Source: Henriciella sp. (GTDB lineage: Bacteria > Pseudomonadota > Alphaproteobacteria > Caulobacterales > Hyphomonadaceae). From it: a stretch of DNA of 64,000 nt. The translations under genes and the position numbers were made by a program. The DNA lies in contig NZ_JAPYRE010000004.1 in assembly GCF_029936995.1 (NCBI RefSeq), positions 372,001-436,000 of the forward strand, given 5' to 3'. The notes beneath the pieces are model-generated. The model worked only from the letters and a program-made list of their open reading frames with translations. It was not told the origin of the DNA and searched no databases. How positions within the stretch are numbered: the first letter of the stretch is position 1; each line of letters opens with the position of its first letter. Below, piece by piece: positions 49,941 to 64,000 of the stretch.

Positions 49941-50016
49941 GCGCCCATAGCTCAGTTGGTAGAGCAACTGACTTTTAATCAGTAGGTCACAGGTTCGAAT
50001 CCTGTTGGGCGTACCA
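49941..50016 (+). tRNA. tRNA-Lys(UUU), integration site of the satellite
   Basis: Full cloverleaf with encoded CCA: anticodon loop CTTTTAA (anticodon TTT), acceptor GCGCCCA/TGGGCGT with a G1-U72 pair. Its 3' 46 bases are repeated at 60209-60254. Confidence 0.95.
49971..50016 (+). repeat. Attachment repeat (left) within tRNA-Lys(UUU)
   Basis: A 46-bp segment from the anticodon loop to the CCA end is identical to 60209-60254. The match breaks directly on both sides. It is the crossover region of the satellite's integrase. Confidence 0.95.
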
Positions 50017-50258: not shown

Positions 50259-50768
50259 TTAGTCTGATCTCACCCAGTCGGCAGGAACGATTGTCGTCTT
50301 GCAGGCTGATACGAACACTCTGGCCGATGTTAGGAGGCCATTCTTCGACGTTGTGCAAAGCGCTTTCGGATCATCTTCCAGAACCTCGGCAAACGTGCAG
50401 ACCTCAACAACATCCCCATCGTTGAAAAGCGTGACTATCTGCCAGGAGAAGTCTTCCTTATCCAGGGAAACCAGAATCGGCTCTGTGCCTTCGGCTTCAG
50501 CGCTGTGCCAGCTGCCCGAAAAGTGTTTCCAACGATAGGCTATATCCCCGGTGTCCGTATCTAATTCAAAGATACTCATGCCATTTGGAATGCCATCTTT
50601 GCCCCAGCCTGCAACCTCCGGGTTATCCGCATACAAGCCTTCTGGCGCGGTGTAGACATGGCCGCTGGACATGCCGCATTCCATCTGAAGAATGTCAGCA
50701 TGGGCTTTCCCGAATATGCTGAAAAGCAGTGCAGAAGCTACAACAATCGCGCCGGAGTGCATTCCCAT
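50259..50768 (-). CDS. Secreted protein of unknown function (169 aa)
   Basis: A clear signal peptide (SGAIVVASALLFSIFGKAHA) is followed by a beta-rich mature part with four Cys (two likely pairs). No family is recognised. It is satellite cargo. It may act at the cell surface or periplasm; superinfection control is one possibility without direct support. Confidence 0.65.
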   Translation of the reverse strand: MGMHSGAIVVASALLFSIFGKAHADILQMECGMSSGHVYTAPEGLYADNPEVAGWGKDGIPNGMSIFELDTDTGDIAYRWKHFSGSWHSAEAEGTEPILVSLDKEDFSWQIVTLFNDGDVVEVCTFAEVLEDDPKALCTTSKNGLLTSARVFVSACKTTIVPADWVRSD

Positions 50769-50806: not shown

Positions 50807-51619
50807 TCACCGGTTTGATCTGAGATACGAAACCCGTTCAGGAATGGACATCGCATCGACGCGCCGCTTTTCGTGCGGGGACAGTGACGCATACACCTGT
50901 TCAATCGACCGCTCGTCTGTGGTGGGCGAAGCGCGCTTGGCGGGTTTGTTCGAGATGCTTGAAGGTGTATTCATAGCTGAATGTGCTTGGCGGGCAGATG
51001 CGGACGCAACAGACGCGGGCGTAATTCGCGCAGCCAGCTGCTCTGCGTTAAGCCCAGCGGCTTTGCCGTACCGCGTCATGATCTGACGCACACTCAGAGC
51101 GTTCGACGCTTCGGGAGTCCCTTCCGAGACGAATTTCACGACAAGGTCGGTGCGGGGCTTTTCAGTTTCATACGTCTGGCCGGGATTGATGGTCGTTCTG
51201 GACGTGGAATTACCGGAGACGTTTGTGCGTGCATTGCCGCTGCACCATGTGGAGCCGCTGCCATAGCCGTAGCCGAAGGAATTACAATTTGCGGACCCGC
51301 TGGTATAGCCGGACCCGGAATAGCTGGTATCTGTCGTAACAGTCGCGGGTGTCGTATGGTACGACGTGTCCGCCCATTCATCATAGTCTAGGATCATGAA
51401 AAGGCTGTAGCCATTCATCCTGGCCAGATCAGCGGCGCGCACCATAGCGATAGCATTCGTTTTCTGTCGCGAGGTTAATCCATTGCCGTAAGCTTGGATG
51501 CGATAGGTGTCGCGGGCGAGGGGCGTTTCATTAAAGCCGCCAAACGCGCCCCCTTCGGTGTAGGTGGCGCAGCCCGTCGTCAGCGTGAGCGCGATTATGC
51601 TAATGATAGCGTTTTTCAT
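50807..51619 (-). CDS. CC0125/CC1285-family lipoprotein
   Basis: The signal ends in the lipobox L-T-T-G-C. The next 60 residues match the CC0125/CC1285 pattern (GGFNETPLARDTYRI, then G-N-G-L-T-S-R-Q-K, then A-A-D-L-A...G-Y-S-L-F-M-I), followed by a low-complexity Ser/Gly/Tyr stretch and a charged C-terminus. Homologues are chromosomal in Caulobacter relatives; here the gene is satellite cargo, perhaps captured from a host. Confidence 0.75.
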   Translation of the reverse strand: MKNAIISIIALTLTTGCATYTEGGAFGGFNETPLARDTYRIQAYGNGLTSRQKTNAIAMVRAADLARMNGYSLFMILDYDEWADTSYHTTPATVTTDTSYSGSGYTSGSANCNSFGYGYGSGSTWCSGNARTNVSGNSTSRTTINPGQTYETEKPRTDLVVKFVSEGTPEASNALSVRQIMTRYGKAAGLNAEQLAARITPASVASASARQAHSAMNTPSSISNKPAKRASPTTDERSIEQVYASLSPHEKRRVDAMSIPERVSYLRSNR

Positions 51620-52044: not shown

Positions 52045-52410
52045 ATGACGATGGTAAAGACTGCTGAACCTTATCTTTTCCGATTTGCGACGAATCGAAA
52101 ATGCGAGGGGCCGGAAATGGAGGGGCGCTACTGCAAGAATAGGCAGCTCTGGGTCATCGACACCGCTGAAGGTGCGCGGCCGATTATAGAGGCCGCTTCC
52201 GAAGCTATCGCGGCGACCCAAACCAAAACTATGACTCAGGTAGAAGCTGACGATGACGATCAAAGCCGCGGTGCGATGATGGAGACCTCGACTTTCACTA
52301 GGGTCCGACAGGAAAGTGACGATAATGACGCTTCACTTGGTTTGCCCGAAATCCAAACAAAGACGGACGTTCAGCAGGAAACTGACGATCAGATCGGTAG
52401 CGTTGTTTGA
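52045..52410 (+). CDS. Putative graspetide (omega-ester peptide) precursor
   Basis: The 121-residue peptide has an N-terminal leader with P-Y-L-F-R-F-A (residues 9-15), like the P-F-x-L-R-F-type leader element of ATP-grasp-modified peptides. The C-terminal half has three repeated cores: T60-K-T-M-T-Q-V-E-A-D-D, T81-S-T-F-T-R-V-R-Q-E-S-D-D and T105-K-T-D-V-Q-Q-E-T-D-D. Thr/Ser donors followed by Glu/Asp acceptors are what ATP-grasp enzymes join into ester rings. An ATP-grasp gene follows after 18 bases. No protease or export gene is adjacent. An alternative is that it is a modified signalling or toxin peptide. Confidence 0.8.
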   Translation: MTMVKTAEPYLFRFATNRKCEGPEMEGRYCKNRQLWVIDTAEGARPIIEAASEAIAATQTKTMTQVEADDDDQSRGAMMETSTFTRVRQESDDNDASLGLPEIQTKTDVQQETDDQIGSVV

Positions 52411-52428
52411 GTTGACGCAGAAGCTCCT

Positions 52429-53367
52429 ATGATTTTGCTCGCTACGAACAAGAGAGACGTGACAACCGACTTTATCGTTCGGGAGATGGAGCGCCAGAGG
52501 TTAGAATTCTTTCGGCTGAACGCGGAAGATATTGCGTGTTATCGAGTTGTGATACCGGATGGCGACCCAGCAAACCTACGACTTGAGTTTGAAGACAGGA
52601 AACTTGAGCTAAGCACGGTCCGATCCGCTTACTATCGTCGCCCACAAGCCCCCACCTTCGATGAGTATCGTCGTTCAACCGCAGAATATCTACAAGCTGA
52701 GTGGTCGGCTATTCTGCGTACTATCTGGAATGCGCTAGAGGGGCGTTGGTTGAACAGTCCCTTCTCTATTCTGAGGGCTGAGGATAAGCCGCGACAACTA
52801 TCCCTTGCAAAGCGCTCAGGTTTTAAGGTTCCTGAAACGCTCGTTACCAATCATTTCGGCAGCGCCACGGCCTTTGGTGAGCAAAGTTCTGTAGTGGCTA
52901 AGCCTTTACGTCACGCCCTCATCAACGATGGTGAAGCTGGAAGAGTGATCTTTACATCACGTATCGACACTTTGGACAAAGCAAACAGTACCGGCATCGA
53001 AATGGCTCCCATTATCTTTCAACAAGAGATTCCAAAGAAGCATGACGTCCGAGTTATCGTCGTTGACAAACAAGTTTTTGCGGCAGCAATACACTCACAA
53101 GAGCGGGAAGAAACAAGTACTGATTGGCGAAAGGGTGTCAGAATGGATCTTGAGCACCGGTCTATTGGTTTGCCACAAAATGTGGCACAGGCCTGTGTGT
53201 CCATCACGAAGTCACTAGGGCTACGTTATTCGGCAATCGACCTAGTAGAAGCGTCTGACGGCGAGTTCTGGTTTCTTGAGGCCAACCCGAACGGTCAATG
53301 GGCGTGGATTGAGCAAAGAACTGGCGCCCCAATAAGCGCGGCTTTAGTCCAGGCTTTTTTGAGATGA
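52429..53367 (+). CDS. ATP-grasp ligase (graspetide macrocyclase)
   Basis: The fold is of the MvdC/MvdD type: an N-terminal domain with S-A-Y-Y-R-R-P near residue 65, then the ATP-binding V-V-A-K-P-L, Q-E-I-P-K-K-H-D-V-R-V, and the final F-L-E-A-N-P-N-G-Q-W that binds magnesium and ATP. 312 aa matches the family. It should activate Asp/Glu side chains of the precursor and form ester (or amide) links with Thr. The stop overlaps the next start as ATGA. Confidence 0.87.
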   Translation: MILLATNKRDVTTDFIVREMERQRLEFFRLNAEDIACYRVVIPDGDPANLRLEFEDRKLELSTVRSAYYRRPQAPTFDEYRRSTAEYLQAEWSAILRTIWNALEGRWLNSPFSILRAEDKPRQLSLAKRSGFKVPETLVTNHFGSATAFGEQSSVVAKPLRHALINDGEAGRVIFTSRIDTLDKANSTGIEMAPIIFQQEIPKKHDVRVIVVDKQVFAAAIHSQEREETSTDWRKGVRMDLEHRSIGLPQNVAQACVSITKSLGLRYSAIDLVEASDGEFWFLEANPNGQWAWIEQRTGAPISAALVQAFLR

Positions 53368-54260
53368 GCTGGGCGAAGTGGCTGGATGCCGTATTTCCGT
53401 ACATCGAGCCTCTAACTGCGGAGCAGAAAAAAACGCAGAATGACCTTTTGGAAAAGGACATCGAGGCGATACGCTCGGCCAAGTTCATGGATGATGGAGG
53501 GCAAGCGCTAACTCAAGCCCAATACGTTGCTGCCGCGGAGATTGAAAGGGTTAGGGTCTCGGAGAGCAAGGCAACGACCTATTTGGCGGTTCTTGCAGCT
53601 TTGGTGCCGCTCGTCATTACTATCCAGGGAGCGACATGGGATAACAAGATCGGCCCAGCACCCGAAGCTTTCAAGTTAGCAATCTTGGCGGTTGCGACGC
53701 TCTATGTGGCGGCAGCCGGCTATCATGCCTTTAAGACATTGCAGGTGTCTGGCTTCCAGCGCGTTGGTGAGAGTGAAGTAACAGATGCTTGGCAATCGTC
53801 TGAGCCGTTGCCGCGCTTGACGCGCAGCACGTTGCTGGCATCTCGGAGATCACGAAACGCAGTCAACGCAAAAATCACGCGGATTAAAGTTACACATCAA
53901 CACCTTCTTAGGGCCTTCGGTGCGTTCATTCTTCTTTTGCTTCTCGATCCAATTTTCTACGCTTCGGGTTTTCAGAACAAGAGTGTGAGGACCTCAACGT
54001 CAGTAGAAGCCGAAGAAAGTCAGGCCATTCGATCCACAGTGGTACCAGATGTCTCCAATAGGGAGCCTTCTCTGGATGAGAATTCTTCGACTAATAAGTC
54101 TTCAAATCGACGCCCCAGCTGTTCAGAGCGGTCAATGCTACCCTCTCTCGAAGAGTTGGATGCAGAACCCGATTCTAGCGATCCGAATCTGGATTGTGAT
54201 GATGACGGTCACTGCGCCAATCAACTTAACCAAGAAAGCAACGTCCAAACAGACGACTAA
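53364..54260 (+). CDS. Membrane protein coupled to the graspetide ligase (298 aa)
   Basis: Three hydrophobic helices are visible (about 70-88, 105-122 and 185-205). A charged N-terminal region with possible coiled coil comes first, and a disordered, Ser/Asp/Glu-rich C-terminal tail comes last (with D-C-D-D-D-G-H-C). The start overlaps the ligase stop by four bases, so they are made together. It has no transporter or protease motif. It may be the target, receptor or effector of the modified peptide; in defence systems such coupled membrane proteins often act as membrane-damaging effectors. Confidence 0.7.
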   Translation: MSWAKWLDAVFPYIEPLTAEQKKTQNDLLEKDIEAIRSAKFMDDGGQALTQAQYVAAAEIERVRVSESKATTYLAVLAALVPLVITIQGATWDNKIGPAPEAFKLAILAVATLYVAAAGYHAFKTLQVSGFQRVGESEVTDAWQSSEPLPRLTRSTLLASRRSRNAVNAKITRIKVTHQHLLRAFGAFILLLLLDPIFYASGFQNKSVRTSTSVEAEESQAIRSTVVPDVSNREPSLDENSSTNKSSNRRPSCSERSMLPSLEELDAEPDSSDPNLDCDDDGHCANQLNQESNVQTDD

Positions 54261-54408: not shown

Positions 54409-54894
54409 TCAGTCTGTCAGGGAAAACTCTGCATCGATAACGCGCTCGTCCTCTGCATCAGAGATATCCAGTTCGGAAATAACGTCCTCAATCGTGCGTA
54501 CAGTGTGATCAACCTTCCAGCGCGATGCAATCGGTCCGTGGCCCCGATCAATCAAGTCCTTAGCGGCTGACAGTCGGGTTGCGGCAGGCGTTTTCTTGTC
54601 GGCGGCGAGGTCCACGAGCACAGCCACGCCAAGCGTTGCCGCCGCATTCAGCCGCCGTGTCAGCTCATTCCGCAGAGCTTCCAGCACCTTAGGATTTCGT
54701 AGCAGCTCATGACCGCGAACACGCGCCGCTGCGCGGCTGGTCTGCGCATAGCCCGCTGCCTGGGCAGCCGTGGCCGCTGCGCCCGGCCCGCCGCCGCTCT
54801 CAGCGTATGCGATCACAAACGCCGATTGCCGCTCTGTCAGGCCATCAAACGTTACGCGTGTCTCTTCCTTCGGTTCGGGCAAATTCCTAGACAT
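54409..54894 (-). CDS. Terminase small subunit
   Basis: The N-terminal part has an L-T-E-R-Q-S-A-F-V...A-Y-A-E-S-G-G-G motif and a helix-turn-helix (A-A-A-Q-A-A-G-Y...R-V-R-G-H-E-L-L-R-N-P-K-V) as in Terminase_2 small subunits; the start at 54894 (MSRNLPEPKEE) is chosen. It has no large subunit partner here. In satellites a lone small subunit redirects the helper phage's packaging to satellite DNA. Confidence 0.8.
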   Translation of the reverse strand: MSRNLPEPKEETRVTFDGLTERQSAFVIAYAESGGGPGAAATAAQAAGYAQTSRAAARVRGHELLRNPKVLEALRNELTRRLNAAATLGVAVLVDLAADKKTPAATRLSAAKDLIDRGHGPIASRWKVDHTVRTIEDVISELDISDAEDERVIDAEFSLTD

Positions 54895-55044
54895 AATGGG
54901 CCTCTCTTCCCCGATGGCGGGGTGTATTGGTGCTACGGCGGAAGGCAGGACGGGAATGACGGGTGCAGTGGGCAAACCTTTGCCGTCTTGGGTTGGTGGC
55001 CACACCAAAAAATTCTTCTTGTTGAAAATCTCCCGTCATTGCCG

Positions 55045-57150
55045 TCATGCGATCCGCCTTTTCAGCGATTGTGTTAGCGGTTTGAGTTGCAGGCCAGTGA
55101 GAGCCCTGTGCCCATCGGCTCTGACAGCTTCTACCTTTCCCTGGCTTGCAGCGATAACCCGCTTGCTGAAAGCGGCGGCTTTCGGTGTTGTCCGCTCATT
55201 GTATCCGTTGAGACTTGCCCATCGCTGGAAGTCCTCGTGCAAGTGCGCTGTCGCAATGGGTGGTCCTTGAACGTAAGAGCATCTTTCCGCGAGCCATGCC
55301 TGCACGATATCGGATGTGTGCGCCCACTCCCGCACGGCGGCGCGGCTGGAATCAAGCGGCGTCAACCCGCCGCGCTGAATGACGCGGCTGGCCCCCTCAA
55401 CCGCCCAAGCAATGAGATTGTCGCCTTCTTCGGCGCCAATGCGCTGCCCAATCCTCGCAATCCGCTCTTCTTCGGGAATGGTCCTGTTGAATTCGAGAAT
55501 GGCGAGACGCCTGATGACCCCTTCGTCCATGCCGCCTGAAAAGCCGGGCAGGGTGTTCGTTGCAAAGAGGTGCATGGCCTGTGGCTTGAAGCTCAAAGCG
55601 GGCGCATAGACTTCGCGGCCTGTCACCACATCTCCCGTGATGACCGCCTTGAACACGTCGCTTGTTATCGCCCTGCCTGTCCCGAGTTCGGAACAGACGT
55701 TCAGGGCTTTGCCATTTAGCTCGATCAGCTTGCGGTCGTCCCCAAAATCACCAGGCGGAATGCTGGAGACTGCATGTGCCGGGAATAGGGCGCGGAAGAG
55801 TTCAAGGACTTCGCTTTTGCCGTTTGCAGCTGTAACGCCGTGCAAGACAATCGCCTGCGGCGCTGTCTGCTCCGTCATCTGTCCAAGCATGGCGAGGCCA
55901 AGGCATTCCTGAAGGAACAGCTTCTTGTCTTCGTCGGCTGCGAAGCAGCCATCCAGCAAAGTCGTCAGAAGCTTGCTCTTTTGGACCGGGCCGGGCGTCC
56001 AGGATGCTCCAAGCACGAAGCGCTGACGCTGTTCAGGTGTGTGGGCTGCAATCGATGCTTCGCCGTCCTTATCGAAAGAGACAAATCCGTTCTCGCAGTT
56101 CACACCTGCGGGTGGGCAGTCAAAAAAGCCGTCCTTGTGCGCCTGGTCCTTCAGGATGGACATGATGCTGTCGGCCTTGGGGGCAGATAGCTTGAGCGTG
56201 CCTTTCTGTCCGAATGCTGCACCGTCGAACTCATAGATGGCTTTGCGAATGCTGACCTTTGCAATCGTCTCCCAGACTTTGCCATTGAACGCGTAGAAAT
56301 ATCCTTCGGTGTAGACGATTTCGGATGTATACCGCTCGCAGAGCTTGAGGTGGAGCGCACTGGCCACTTCGACATCGCTGCCGGTCATGATCCGCGAAAG
56401 GAAGGGGTTCACCGGGGAGGCGTGTTCCAGCAGCGCTTCCAGCGCGTCTGCGCCGTTACGAACGAGGAAGTCATCAAGCCCCTGTTTTGAGCCGTCGTCG
56501 CAGTTCGGAAGATCGACAATCCTGACTTCAGCCCCGCGTTCAACGAGCAGTTTGGCAAGCGCACGCTGAGCATGGCCGATGTGCGGGTTTGTGGCGGCGT
56601 CGCTGTCAAATACGATCCAGATTGATCGGCCTTCCCACTCAAACTGCTCAAGTTCGCGCAAGAGCTGGCCATCGCGTTTAAAGCACCATACGCCGCTGAG
56701 CCCGATTGTTGGGAAGCCGTCCAGGCAAGCCTTTAAAGCCTTCTTTTCGCCCTCGGTAATGAGCACCGGTTCCTTAGGGCTTGTCGCAATATCAGCCCAA
56801 CGGAACATGCGGGTCATAGGGAAGTAGGCGTGAACGCCGCTGCCTCCTGCCTGAACGTATCGCGGTAGGGGCTTGCGCACAAAGCCACGCTGAGCGCTGT
56901 CAGCAAGATACCTCAGTCGATAGAATGGGCGTGTCCCATGTCGGTGCTCAAACTGCACGGGATCGCCATTGATGTCGTGGTAAGCGAAAGCGAGCGCTGG
57001 CGCGTTGGCAAATCCCGCGTCAAGCGATCGAGCATTCGCGCAGGGGAAAATGCCCGCATGTGCTGCGTCAGCTTCCGTGATGCCGCTGTCCTTTAAATGT
57101 GCACGCGCTCGCTCGAATAGGGCGCTAGCGTCGTTGTCGTTTCTAGGCAT
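55045..57150 (-). CDS. Satellite primase-helicase (DUF3854/TOPRIM + D5-like helicase)
   Basis: Residues about 100-260 form a TOPRIM-like DUF3854 domain (L-I-T-E-G-E-K-K-A and W-I-V-F-D-S-D). The second half is a D5/SF3-type helicase with Walker A T-A-A-N-G-K-S and the following N-V-C-S-E-L and L-F-A-T-N-T-L-P blocks. It drives replication of the excised element. The start overlaps the end of the 57143-57658 gene by eight bases. Confidence 0.88.
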   Translation of the reverse strand: MPRNDNDASALFERARAHLKDSGITEADAAHAGIFPCANARSLDAGFANAPALAFAYHDINGDPVQFEHRHGTRPFYRLRYLADSAQRGFVRKPLPRYVQAGGSGVHAYFPMTRMFRWADIATSPKEPVLITEGEKKALKACLDGFPTIGLSGVWCFKRDGQLLRELEQFEWEGRSIWIVFDSDAATNPHIGHAQRALAKLLVERGAEVRIVDLPNCDDGSKQGLDDFLVRNGADALEALLEHASPVNPFLSRIMTGSDVEVASALHLKLCERYTSEIVYTEGYFYAFNGKVWETIAKVSIRKAIYEFDGAAFGQKGTLKLSAPKADSIMSILKDQAHKDGFFDCPPAGVNCENGFVSFDKDGEASIAAHTPEQRQRFVLGASWTPGPVQKSKLLTTLLDGCFAADEDKKLFLQECLGLAMLGQMTEQTAPQAIVLHGVTAANGKSEVLELFRALFPAHAVSSIPPGDFGDDRKLIELNGKALNVCSELGTGRAITSDVFKAVITGDVVTGREVYAPALSFKPQAMHLFATNTLPGFSGGMDEGVIRRLAILEFNRTIPEEERIARIGQRIGAEEGDNLIAWAVEGASRVIQRGGLTPLDSSRAAVREWAHTSDIVQAWLAERCSYVQGPPIATAHLHEDFQRWASLNGYNERTTPKAAAFSKRVIAASQGKVEAVRADGHRALTGLQLKPLTQSLKRRIA

Positions 57151-57658
57151 AGTCCCTCGCAGTCTTGGAGCGCGCAGCCAGATGACGCATCAACGCACCA
57201 TAGCGGATATCGAAATCATCAAGCGCGCGTGCTGCGGCTTCTTCGCCAAACAGTTCAGGCACCACGGTTGTGGCCTCATAGAGCGCGCTGGTGATGTCGC
57301 AGGCGTCGCGGTAAACTTTCTCGATCATGTATTGCTGAGCGGATCGAGAAATCAGATTTGGTTCCTGTTCAGCCCCCGACATCGCATTCCAGTATCTGCT
57401 GCACGCAATTTCGCGGCATAGTTCGATGAGTGCGTGGGAGGCCCCCTCTGCCGAAATTTCCGATAAGCGCCAGCGGGATTCGTGCTCTGAGTAGGCTAGC
57501 AAGCCCACAGGTTCGTCGTTTTCGACTGCCCAGACGAGCCTCTCTGCCGTCGTTGAAAAGATGCCAACGGCTAGGCTTTCAGGCAGGTCTCTGACGGGCT
57601 TTCCCGCCTTGAGCCTGGCCGCGATAAATGAGGGGAGTTGATACCGGCTGAGAGTCAC
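57143..57658 (-). CDS. Hypothetical satellite protein (171 aa)
   Basis: Starts with GTG at 57658, overlapping the AlpA gene stop. Mostly helical with no motif I recognise. It lies between the AlpA regulator and the primase, both overlapping it, so it is part of the replication operon. Confidence 0.65.
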   Translation of the reverse strand: MTLSRYQLPSFIAARLKAGKPVRDLPESLAVGIFSTTAERLVWAVENDEPVGLLAYSEHESRWRLSEISAEGASHALIELCREIACSRYWNAMSGAEQEPNLISRSAQQYMIEKVYRDACDITSALYEATTVVPELFGEEAAARALDDFDIRYGALMRHLAARSKTARDYA

Positions 57659-57855
57659 GACGCACCCCCAGCATGGGCAGCGCGCTCTTCGATCCAGTCA
57701 TTGATGTCCTGCTCGCGCCAGCGGACGGCTGAACCAATGTCTCCTGTGCGGAGCGGTTGTGGGAACCGGCCTTGACGGACAAGTCGCATGACTGAGCCGG
57801 GATGCAGATCGAGAAATTCTGCAACGGCAGCTTTGGACAGTAGTTTCTGTTGCAT
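57655..57855 (-). CDS. AlpA-type regulator/excisionase (66 aa)
   Basis: A short winged-helix DNA-binding protein: L-S-K-A-A-V-A-E-F-L-D-L-H-P-G-S-V-M-R-L-V-R recognition region and the final R-W-R-E-Q-D-I-N-D-W-I motif. AAGGAGG lies upstream of the ATG. AlpA proteins control excision and expression in P4-like satellites and prophages. Confidence 0.88.
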   Translation of the reverse strand: MQQKLLSKAAVAEFLDLHPGSVMRLVRQGRFPQPLRTGDIGSAVRWREQDINDWIEERAAHAGGAS

Positions 57856-57915: not shown

Positions 57916-58752
57916 TTACTTAATCTGCCGCGTTCTTTTGCTCTGTCTCGACTTTCGAACAGAATAAGAGTTTGCATTTGCCCGCAGCGCCTCTGGCGCA
58001 GCAGCGTTTTTAAGATACTGCTTAATATCGGGGCTGCGTTTCAATTCGGGGTCATCCACCCACTTCTGCATGAGCATGCGAGCCACGGCTTCCCAGCCCC
58101 GTTTTCCTTGCCCGCTACCAATGAAGGTTGCGATAAATTCGTCAGCGAGCCGGTCTGCATCGGCTTCGATGTTTTTCGCGATGATTGCTATACGATCATC
58201 ATGGCCGAGTTCCGAGAGTCCGGAGCGCTCGCAGAATTCCGCATTTTCTGCCGGACCTGTTGCGAGGTCTTTGGCGCGGGCTCGTATGTCAGCTGAGATG
58301 CACGTCCGAACACACCTTGGCGCGAAATCAACAGCAGCCGCATAGACGTGGGCACCGATTGTGACCGGGCCGGGACGCCGACCCGGATTAGCATTGTGCG
58401 GTGAATTCAATGCGGCTCGGATCATCAAATCCGCAATCCGAAGTTCGTCCATGCCGAAATCGTCGTACTTCTCACCGCTTAGAAGAGCGTCCCAGAGACT
58501 GCGAAGTCTTTTTTCGCGTCGATCCCAGCGAAGGCTGCATGCGTCCTCCAGTTCTTGCACAAATTCAGAGCCCGATGCGCCCAAGTGCTGCGCGGCATCA
58601 GAAGCTGCGACATAGGCCAACACAGTATCATCTCCATTCGGATCGGTATCGCTCCAGCGTTTCGGATCGTCCCAAGCGTCAGCGCACTCCGCAAGCAAAT
58701 CAGCGGGCTCGGGCCACAGGTCCGCAAAGTCCTTTCCCTGATTGTCAGTCAC
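57916..58752 (-). CDS. Hypothetical satellite protein (278 aa)
   Basis: Starts with GTG at 58752, overlapping the integrase stop by four bases. Helical and charged, with a basic tail (SVRKSRQSKRTRQIK). I do not recognise it. It might bind DNA, and it is translated with the integrase. Confidence 0.6.
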   Translation of the reverse strand: MTDNQGKDFADLWPEPADLLAECADAWDDPKRWSDTDPNGDDTVLAYVAASDAAQHLGASGSEFVQELEDACSLRWDRREKRLRSLWDALLSGEKYDDFGMDELRIADLMIRAALNSPHNANPGRRPGPVTIGAHVYAAAVDFAPRCVRTCISADIRARAKDLATGPAENAEFCERSGLSELGHDDRIAIIAKNIEADADRLADEFIATFIGSGQGKRGWEAVARMLMQKWVDDPELKRSPDIKQYLKNAAAPEALRANANSYSVRKSRQSKRTRQIK

Positions 58753-60026
58753 TCAACTGCCCTCCTGCTTATTGGAACAACATTGGCCGGTTTCGGTTGG
58801 ATAATCCGGTTGAGCAGTGCAGCCAGTGCTTCAAGTGCCTCGCGCTTTTCCTCGACATAGGCGTGCCGGTCATAAACACCGGCAACACCGGGAATAGCGT
58901 GGCCAAGCACTCGCTCAGATATGTCGGGACTCACCCTGGCGCGTGACATGAGCGTGCGACATGTGCGGCGTATGTCATGCACGGTCCAGTGGGGTAGGGG
59001 CTCGCCGTCGCGGGACTCGGTGATAGCCGCATCGAGAGCCGCTTTCAGCGCCGACCAATTGGCCATTTGCTTGGACGGGTCTCTCTGGGCAGGGAAGACG
59101 AGGCTGGACCCGTCAATTTCTGGCTGGGCGTCCACAACTGCCTTAGCCTCCGGCGTAAGCGGCACAAATTGCGGGCGCTTACCTTTGTAGACGGCGGCGG
59201 GGATTTCCCAGACGCCATCTGCTCCAATCTGCCCGCACTGCATTTGCGCGACTTCTCCGAGCCGTTGTGCGGTGTAAAACAGTGTCTTGAGCACCGCCCC
59301 ATAGGTGCCGGTCAGGTGTGGCCAGATGAGCCGGATTTCTTCGTCACTGAGAACGCGGGTTCTTGCCCGGTCCTTCGGCTTTGTCCGGGCCATCCCCTTC
59401 ACGATGGGAGAGACAAAATCAGGATCGCGCGTGGCATGCCAGTTCATCAACTTGCGAAGCTGAGCGAGAACGCGGTCTGCCATAACCGGTCCACCATAGG
59501 TCTTGCCATCCCGGCCCTTGAAGGCACCCGCCTCGATCTGATCAAGCCGTTCCACAATTTCCGGGCGTCGTATCTCATCAATCTGTCGGTCCTCCCAGCC
59601 GGGGCGAAGGTAGAAATCGACAATGCGCTTGTTTTCCGCATAGCTCCGGTTCCGAGCGGCGTGCTTTTCAAGAAACAGGTCCGCCACAGCGCCGAAGCGG
59701 TCACGCGCCTGCTTCTCGGCTGCGGCCTGAGCGGCAGCTTCATCGCTGGACCTGTCGCGCCGAGGGTCCACGCCACGTCTGCATGAGCCAACAGTTTCCA
59801 CCGCCCATGTGCGGGCCTCGGCCAACACGCTGATATGGGCGGGGCTCTCATAAGTCAGCCGGATGGGCTGCTTCTGACCTTTGATCCGCGCGCGCACGAT
59901 AAAGCTGCGATTGCCCCGCGCTGTGATCCTGAGGACCAGCGGAGACAACGAGTCACGTATCTCGACGCGCCCCGATTTCGGCGGACGCTGTTCAAGAACG
60001 GCCGGGGTCAAAAGTTTCCGGTGCAT
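58749..60026 (-). CDS. int: Tyrosine integrase of the satellite
   Basis: The N-terminal arm-binding domain (DUF4102-type, L-V-L-R-I-T-A-R-G-N-R-S-F-I-V-R) is followed by the core-binding and catalytic domains: Arg in T-A-Q-R-L-G-E-V, H-D-I-R-R-T (H-x-x-R) and the C-terminal H-A...Y-D-R-H-A-Y with the nucleophilic Tyr. The ATG at 60026 has a GGGGCAGG upstream; the longer frame to 60077 is less likely. It lies next to the right attachment repeat, in the usual position. Confidence 0.93.
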   Translation of the reverse strand: MHRKLLTPAVLEQRPPKSGRVEIRDSLSPLVLRITARGNRSFIVRARIKGQKQPIRLTYESPAHISVLAEARTWAVETVGSCRRGVDPRRDRSSDEAAAQAAAEKQARDRFGAVADLFLEKHAARNRSYAENKRIVDFYLRPGWEDRQIDEIRRPEIVERLDQIEAGAFKGRDGKTYGGPVMADRVLAQLRKLMNWHATRDPDFVSPIVKGMARTKPKDRARTRVLSDEEIRLIWPHLTGTYGAVLKTLFYTAQRLGEVAQMQCGQIGADGVWEIPAAVYKGKRPQFVPLTPEAKAVVDAQPEIDGSSLVFPAQRDPSKQMANWSALKAALDAAITESRDGEPLPHWTVHDIRRTCRTLMSRARVSPDISERVLGHAIPGVAGVYDRHAYVEEKREALEALAALLNRIIQPKPANVVPISRRAVE

Positions 60027-60149
60027 TTTCGCCTGCCCCCTACTACGGGGACACGCACGATGCACGAATTGTGCCACTCAAAGGTGTGTCCACCTGAGCA
60101 GAAAAGTTGGCTAGTATTTAGAAAAAAGCAAGCTATTACAGAGAACTAT

Positions 60150-60208: not shown

Positions 60209-60254
60209 ACTTTTAATCAGTAGGTCACAGGTTCGAATCCTGTTGGGCGTACCA
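60209..60254 (+). repeat. Attachment repeat (right)
   Basis: Identical 46-bp copy of 49971-50016, without the 5' half of the tRNA, so it is not a functional tRNA gene. Confidence 0.95.
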
Positions 60255-62967: not shown

Positions 62968-63043
<76 letters not shown>

Positions 63044-64000
63044 CCGTCACTATTACAGATCACGGCTTTCGGCCTCTGGTCCATTCCCACTTCCATTCCC
63101 ACCTTCATTCCCACTTTTGTCACCCTGATGTTCTACGAGCGCGGTATTTCCGTCTCGCCATTTCGAGTATCAGCTCGTCTTCATCGTGCAGGTAATGGTC
63201 CAGAGACTTACTGTCCTTGTGGCGGCTGATGAGCTGTAGCTCCCGGTCCTGAAAGCCGTACTTCCGGAGCGCGGTCAGCCCGCCATGCCGGAACGCGGCG
63301 AAGGTAACATAGCCCGGTAGCTCTGCCGCTTCCCTGACGGCTCTAGCCTGGACGGCCTGATTGTTGATCGGGTACAGGCCCTTCGTGCGCTCAAGGGTCA
63401 CGGTGTCGATGTGCTGGCGGCGGAAGACAAGATCATCCGGCTCGCCTTTCGGGCAGTGATTAATCAGCGCGACCAGTTCGGGAAAGAACAGCTCTCCCGT
63501 CTCCGGGTCCGCTATCGGTATCCATGCGCCGTTCTTCCGCTTGCCTGCATGGACGAAACAGTGATGCGGGTGGTCATCCGGTCGCCAGTCTTTCCAGCGG
63601 AAGTCACGGAACGCCTCTGTGGGCCTGACGTGCAGATCCCAGACGAGTTGCGCGGCAGCGGCCACCGCTGGCTCGCCCATAGCGATTGCCTTGGACGTGA
63701 AACTGGTAAGCTGGCCATAGGTGGCGTGCTTCGTCTCCTGAGCGGTGTGTGAGAGCTTCATGTCCGCGAAGGGGTTTTCCAGCGGGATTATATCGTCATG
63801 CTGGCGGTAGGCCGCAGCCCAGCACGTCTTCATGATGGTCATGGCCTTCTGTGCCTGCCGGGAGCCGCTTTTCATCATTTCGCGGTAGAGCTTGTCAGCG
63901 TGGCGAGGGCGCACCTTTTCGCACGGCATATCCTTGATCGGCTTGCCGTTCGTCGTGATCGACATGGCGGCGATCTTCTTCAGCACCCGGTCATAGTCCC
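63044..64000. mobile_element. Start of a third integrated element
   Basis: An integrase gene directly beside the 3' end of tRNA-Lys(CUU) marks the junction. The rest lies to the right of the window, so its size and type are not known. Confidence 0.75.
63120..64000 (-). CDS. Tyrosine-type integrase (partial, 5' end outside the window)
   Basis: The frame is open to the right edge (D-Y-D-R precedes the first visible start codon). Catalytic residues are visible: Arg in H-V-R-P-T-E, F-R-H-G-G-L-T-A-L-R (H-x-x-R-like) and H-K-D-S-K-S-L-D-H-Y with the nucleophilic Tyr. The C-terminal domain is complete. It should integrate its element at tRNA-Lys(CUU). Confidence 0.87.
   Translation of the reverse strand, partial: DYDRVLKKIAAMSITTNGKPIKDMPCEKVRPRHADKLYREMMKSGSRQAQKAMTIMKTCWAAAYRQHDDIIPLENPFADMKLSHTAQETKHATYGQLTSFTSKAIAMGEPAVAAAAQLVWDLHVRPTEAFRDFRWKDWRPDDHPHHCFVHAGKRKNGAWIPIADPETGELFFPELVALINHCPKGEPDDLVFRRQHIDTVTLERTKGLYPINNQAVQARAVREAAELPGYVTFAAFRHGGLTALRKYGFQDRELQLISRHKDSKSLDHYLHDEDELILEMARRKYRARRTSG

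Follow-up and report, generated by a model that had tools for sequence, protein, structure and literature searches.

What does a graspetide operon that ends in a membrane-protein gene do for the cell that carries it? The question arises at positions 52045-54260 of a 64,000-nucleotide stretch of Henriciella sp. (contig NZ_JAPYRE010000004.1, positions 372,001 to 436,000; here called the window), where a peptide precursor, an ATP-grasp ligase and a membrane protein are encoded one after the other inside a phage satellite. An initial annotation of this DNA thought an anti-phage or competition system possible, and a role in conflict or defence is now backed by homology of the membrane protein's family to PycTM, an effector of the Pycsar anti-phage system, and by the defence-rich neighbourhoods of related operons. 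We put at about 0.57 the probability of a defence or abortive-infection module whose cross-linked peptide would remain unexported and control a PycTM-like effector in one direction or the other, and the results as a whole suggest that this graspetide family has a role in anti-phage defence.

A check of the open reading frames (ORFs) of the window finds all three genes open on the + strand:

52045..52410, + strand: graspetide precursor, 121 amino acids, folded leader plus three cores (ORF; alignment with 49 homologues; structure model)
52069..52089, + strand: leader box 1, PYLFRFA, residues 9-15 (sequence; precursor alignment)
52123..52188, + strand: leader box 2, GxY(x6)W(x9)PII, residues 27-48 (alignment; structure model)
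52222..52254, + strand: core 1, TxTxxxxExDD, residues 60-70 (pattern match; shuffle test)
52291..52323, + strand: core 2, TxTxxxxExDD, residues 83-93 (pattern match; shuffle test)
52357..52389, + strand: core 3, TxTxxxxExDD, residues 105-115 (pattern match; shuffle test)
52429..53367, + strand: ATP-grasp graspetide ligase, 312 amino acids (NCBIfam and Pfam scans)
53364..54260, + strand: PycTM-like membrane protein with three predicted transmembrane (TM) helices, 298 amino acids, with a low-confidence acidic C-terminal tail (sequence, alignment, AlphaFold, profile comparison)

The first two genes have the marks of a graspetide locus: a precursor with a Phhx(1,2)h leader (PYLFRFA) and Thr...Glu/Asp cores, and an ATP-grasp peptide ligase adjoining it. 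The initial annotation had read three TxT...ExDD cores behind a P-Y-L-F-R-F-A leader, and the cores proved more regular than it stated, all of them being exactly TxTxxxxExDD; among 20,000 shuffles of the precursor, at least one match to this pattern arose in 30 and two matches in none. Alignment of the window precursor with 49 of 63 precursors revealed a two-box leader common to all 50, P-[FYLI]-hydrophobic...R and then G-x-Y...W-V...P-I-I, in which P9 and the R18 that follows it are conserved in at least 90%, as are G27 and P46 of the second box, and Y29 is invariant; a stricter box 2 pattern is matched by 42 of the 63. In the AlphaFold model, box 2 forms a small beta meander (strands 28-30, 35-40 and 43-46) with disordered cores behind it, the predicted local distance difference test (pLDDT) score being 82-93 by block for residues 21-50 and only 63 for the whole model. 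The ligase, also called from the letters alone, matches TIGR04187 (ATP-grasp ribosomal peptide maturase) best among NCBIfam models (expectation value, E, 6e-77), followed by the MvdC and MvdD models, all three below their curated cut-offs, while its match to Pfam RimK (E 2e-11) lies above the cut-off.

The set of genes is conserved. We compared 86 related loci (the best 80 of 167 ligase loci on bacterial genome contigs, together with six on predicted viral contigs), and the membrane protein accompanies the ligase in 85 of them, as counted by a profile that was seeded with the window protein and iterated on the ORFs of these same loci. The only locus without the gene, L087, has the lowest identity in both lists (32%). 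The membrane gene stands 3' of the ligase in 84 loci and ahead of the precursor in L064, and its frame, taken from the first start codon, begins before the ligase stop in 79 of the 85. Record titles of the genome-contig loci include Alpha-, Beta- and Gammaproteobacteria, Bacteroidota, Bacillota, Nitrospirae, Chlamydiae and Spirochaetia.

The cores are conserved as well, strict TxTxxxxExDD being found in 76 of the 86 other loci (77 of 87 with the window) and at least twice in 72 of the 87. Both conservation checks proposed with the initial annotation, on the cores and on the membrane protein, thus came out in its favour. By eye, six of the ten non-strict loci (L071, L073, L074, L075, L077 and L080) have TxTxTxxxExSDxD-like cores and three (L078, L079 and L086, each with a single-core precursor) have SKTxxxPGDDDPD cores; L087 has neither type. 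The membrane partner is thus kept as the core changes. Two tandem precursor frames lie 5' of the ligase in L071, L074 and L079.

The membrane-family profile found matches in seven of 398 genomes of the phylum that were searched. The three strong ones (the window, L116 and L117) all lie within the operon. Among the four weak ones, that in L120 stands beside a ligase, in a different graspetide operon (153-2235) that combines TxTSExxDQSE-like repeats and a ligase with an overlapping membrane gene that is weakly related.

The ATG of the membrane gene overlaps the TGA of the ligase, and three TM helices are predicted, in keeping with the ATGA-coupled three-helix protein of the initial annotation. 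The AlphaFold model has long helices at residues 45-92, 101-126 and 148-202, with pLDDT above 90 across most of residues 1-200. An alignment of 71 of 73 non-redundant family members, the window protein included and L069 and L071 left out, shows five near-invariant residues placed directly ahead of TM1 and TM3: R62 in 71 proteins, E59 in 68, K69 in 64 (Arg in seven), N168 in 66 and K170 in 67. The loop between TM1 and TM2 contains one basic residue and the region between TM2 and TM3 nine, a charge pattern that points to an N-in, C-out topology with the conserved residues on the cytosolic side. The proteins of L014, L015 and L016 continue for some 170-200 residues past TM3, and these extensions show a similar pattern that contains Trp and Cys.

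Profile comparison indicates homology of this family to PycTM, Pycsar's pore-forming effector. PycTM is the most-matched of 5,027 PADLOC models for the 71 members, 36 of which match it with E values of 0.1 or lower (the best being 1.8e-7). A hhalign comparison of the family with 19 PycTM proteins gave a probability of 94.8% (P 5.1e-8) over 152 columns, which extend across the three TM helices and include a (D/E)xKA motif, the two helices of the hairpin and the helix leading into TM3; the controls gave 0.6% and 0.4% for reversed profiles, 3.9% for ExbB and 0.1% for COX4 (a single COX4 sequence). The 19 proteins came from 28 loci with PycTM-like matches (L088-L115), with L094, L113 and L114 unused and L090, L091, L096, L100, L104 and L107 dropped for duplicate or long frames. 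In one of the loci, L089 (1307-3251), the PycTM homologue lies beside two genes that look cyclase-like by eye, as in a Pycsar locus.

The surroundings of the relatives point the same way. Neighbour sets of 135 and 128 proteins were built from at most two flanking ORFs on either side of 72 non-redundant loci among the 86; the smaller set omits one of its 129 ORFs, which is the second half of the membrane gene broken in L071. At E 1e-5 these match 438 and 247 PADLOC families, with at most six and four proteins per family, while the control ORFs (127 of 147, from 20 arbitrary 9-kb stretches) match 25 families with one protein each, AbiTii and MzaB included. Counts of proteins say more than counts of families, since a single GajA protein matches 92 or 128 PADLOC models: the 135 include six GajB and five GajA proteins, and the 128 four type III methyltransferases. 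Pfam finds OLD-like TOPRIM 4, SduA 2, Methylase_S 2 and integrase 3 in the first set, and GmrSD 2, nSTAND3 2 and integrase 3 in the second. Ten neighbour proteins were examined singly, among them one from L036 with weak matches only. A type I restriction operon (M, R, S) terminates just 5' of the precursor frame in L002, the closest relative; a Gabija pair lies directly downstream in L020 and in L026; L019 has a ThsB-like TIR protein (E 7e-6) and a caspase upstream; and a type II restriction enzyme is encoded in L016. Among the 25 families listed for each neighbour set at E 1e-5, none with two or more members is an ABC transporter or a C39 peptidase. Defence genes thus lie around the relatives, and the window operon's own neighbours are satellite genes.

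Those genes belong to an element of 10.2 kb, bounded by a perfect 46-nt direct repeat of the 3' end of a tRNA-Lys gene:

49971..50016, + strand: left attachment repeat, 3' end of the tRNA-Lys(TTT) gene 49941-50016
50807-51619: CC0125/CC1285-family lipoprotein gene, beside the operon (NCBIfam, above cut-off)
54409..55008, - strand: small terminase subunit (Terminase_2 E 1.6e-7; phrog_51 E 5e-12)
55045..57150, - strand: P4-type primase/helicase (TIGR01613 E 3e-37, above cut-off)
57655..57855, - strand: AlpA-like excisionase/regulator (Pfam and PHROGs scans)
58749..60077, - strand: tyrosine integrase (PF00589 E 7e-11; phrog_1 E 8e-50)
60209..60254, + strand: right attachment repeat (perfect 46-nt repeat)

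The satellite context proposed at the outset holds for the window, where the tRNA-Lys repeats enclose genes for an integrase, AlpA, a P4-type primase and a small terminase. So does the lack of a transporter or protease: Pfam and NCBIfam scans of ten element genes show no family of either kind, and the eleventh gene (50259-50768), scanned with PHROGs only, had no match. A sister element in genome G009 of the same genus has an identical attachment sequence across 47 bp, with identities of 93% for the integrase, 91% for the primase, 85% for the terminase and 73% for AlpA, and its cargo zone is ended by a transposase and the contig end. Because the G009 genome has no ligase match, the operon is variable cargo. 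A close ligase was found in the window's own genome only, out of 101 searched (this one and 100 relatives), with weak matches (E 1e-8 or worse) in 21 others. A second tRNA-Lys gene (CTT) lies in the 62968-63986 region with a frame (63120-63986, - strand) that is integrase-like by eye, perhaps the edge of another integrated element past the window end.

The operon is nevertheless no speciality of satellites, since 80 of the 86 related loci come from bacterial genome contigs and six from predicted viral contigs. The membrane gene is present in five of those six, relatives of the membrane protein occur in five plasmid records, and the operon in the Leptospira phage record KF114876 consists of a precursor, a ligase and an overlapping gene that encodes a protein starting like the L085 membrane protein. 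A record named Bacteriophage sp. (MT835913.1) shares the operon and its accompanying type II restriction genes with the Sphingomonas locus L016 and is probably not a phage but a bacterial island.

How might such a module work? The ligase would join Thr to Glu or Asp side chains within each core of the precursor, twice per core if it behaves as for thuringinin (PMC12291112), and the multicore product would stay in the cytosol and bind the cytosolic face of the PycTM-like protein. PycTM itself disrupts the membrane through a pore upon phage infection, according to the passages of PMC11224242 drawn on here. The modified peptide might then be a resting-state guard that holds the effector closed. 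If phage attack shut down host synthesis, cost the cell its energy or removed the ester-linked peptide, the effector would be released to permeabilise the membrane and halt the infection, and translational coupling behind the ligase would prevent synthesis of the effector without its guard. We take the modified peptide as the resting state because graspetide ligases known to us need no trigger other than leader and ATP. We regard this guard version as possible, if still short of probable in its own right.

The opposite sign of control, which shares in the probability given above, makes the cross-linked multicore peptide an infection signal that clusters and opens the effector, a peptide analogue of cyclic uridine monophosphate (UMP). 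A small messenger does activate PycTM (PMC11224242, in the passages drawn on), and repeated cores could cluster an oligomer. On the other hand, single-core precursors exist, and an activator requires a ligase that is silent until infection, for which the operon has no further gene; with ligases active without a trigger, an activating peptide would kill the resting host, which favours the guard. We therefore consider the activator version unlikely, and a guard role the more likely of the two.

Outside a defence module, the reading that survives best has the membrane protein as a dedicated exporter or export adaptor of a secreted graspetide (a protease inhibitor or bacteriocin), along the lines proposed by Makarova et al. 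The pairing is strict at loci where, in the parts of PMC8939145 drawn on, known transporters are uncommon, and a G[GAS] pair lies within 15 residues ahead of the first core in 20 of the 63 precursors; the other 43 have none there. Against export stand the three TM helices without an ATPase, the homology of the family to an effector and the defence genes around the relatives; we think it improbable, though less so than the readings that follow.

Strict pairing and gene overlap would also suit a partner in biosynthesis, acting on the ligase at the membrane as scaffold or activator. Such a role leaves the PycTM homology and the defence context unexplained, and thuringinin is reportedly made by ligase and precursor alone. 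Partner-protein-dependent graspetide synthesis is known for rosaritide and its partner MirC, but MirC is a peptidyl-prolyl isomerase (PPIase)/SurA-like protein (Carter et al. 2026, PMC13097080, in the parts covered), and we give this reading little credence. Least probable of all is a bacteriocin-type locus with a toxic exported or released peptide and the membrane protein as its immunity protein: immunity proteins are frequently small membrane proteins, and a small peptide with a small membrane protein on mobile elements fits, but the ten scanned element genes include no exporter or lysis gene and the pairing holds despite large variation of the core.

Several observations weigh against the defence module, which we still prefer. 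The window membrane protein alone matches PADLOC PycTM at E 0.02 and no Pfam family at E up to 1, the curated PF18967 included; among the 25 of 74 Pfam families listed for the 71 members, DUF2207_C is the most frequent (eight members) and Pfam PycTM is absent. Pfam and NCBIfam scans of the same ten element genes show no nucleotide cyclase, the partner expected of Pycsar. The post-TM3 extension of L014-L016 is predicted to lie outside the cytosol, where the guard model makes no use of it. Three weak membrane relatives (L119, L121 and L122) have no ligase on the fetched stretches. Two of the 85 loci have a split membrane frame with the ligase open (L008 6867-7837 and L071 6906-7632), and in L062 (574-1516) the ligase frame is split and the membrane frame open; these splits could be decay or sequence error and favour neither sign of control. 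As for the neighbourhoods, the control applies to the PADLOC counts only and comes from seven genomes, all of the window's phylum, GajA-type matches inflate the family counts, and non-defence cargo also occurs in defence islands. Finally, as of 2022 every characterised graspetide was a protease inhibitor (PMC8939145, in the parts drawn on), which hints at other roles.

If the defence module is right, thuringinin-type graspetides gain an intracellular immune role, with a ribosomally synthesized and post-translationally modified peptide (RiPP) as abortive-infection guard or messenger, and membrane effectors in bacterial immunity would be controlled by cross-linked peptides as well as by cyclic nucleotides. 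The link of this widespread graspetide group with a PycTM-like effector and with defence-rich loci makes the purpose of these peptides directly testable in E. coli.

Parts of this arrangement were known, and the initial view that no described system has such a set did not stand. In the parts drawn on here, Makarova et al. 2022 (PMC8939145) report thuringinin-type precursors with multiple cores, and with them cluster 18, an uncharacterised family of membrane proteins that occurs 198 times and is specific to thuringinin loci, mostly ones without known peptide transporters. This cluster is probably the family to which the window protein belongs. The window and its relatives, a Bacillaceae locus (L059) included, share with thuringinin-type loci the multicore Thr/Glu/Asp precursors, the single ATP-grasp ligase, the uncharacterised membrane protein and, mostly, the lack of a transporter. 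Their interpretation differs from ours: peptide transport was suggested, and the words phage and immunity occur nowhere in the main text. The parts of PMC13097080 covered make no mention of this membrane family; PMC11118758, on RiPPs and phages, names graspetides five times, with no tie to defence in the passages drawn on; and no title or abstract opening among the openly licensed papers listed links graspetides with PycTM or phage defence.

With P4-like phage satellites the window element has in common the integrase, AlpA, P4-type primase, tRNA attachment site and variable cargo; it differs from them in its Terminase_2 small terminase gene and in having a graspetide operon as cargo. With PycTM (PF18967; PADLOC PDLC02363-02365), the membrane family shares a helix, a hairpin and a third TM helix in the same order, the (D/E)xKA motif ahead of TM1 and a conserved Lys in the helix preceding TM3. 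It is unlike PycTM in having a peptide ligase as its partner, with no pyrimidine cyclase seen, and in the additional near-invariant E59, R62 and N168. This homology of a graspetide-partner membrane family to PycTM, as far as profiles can tell, appears to be new, and the chances seem evenly balanced that it marks a new class of immunity, in which an unexported, cross-linked multicore RiPP would directly gate a Pycsar-type membrane-breaking effector.
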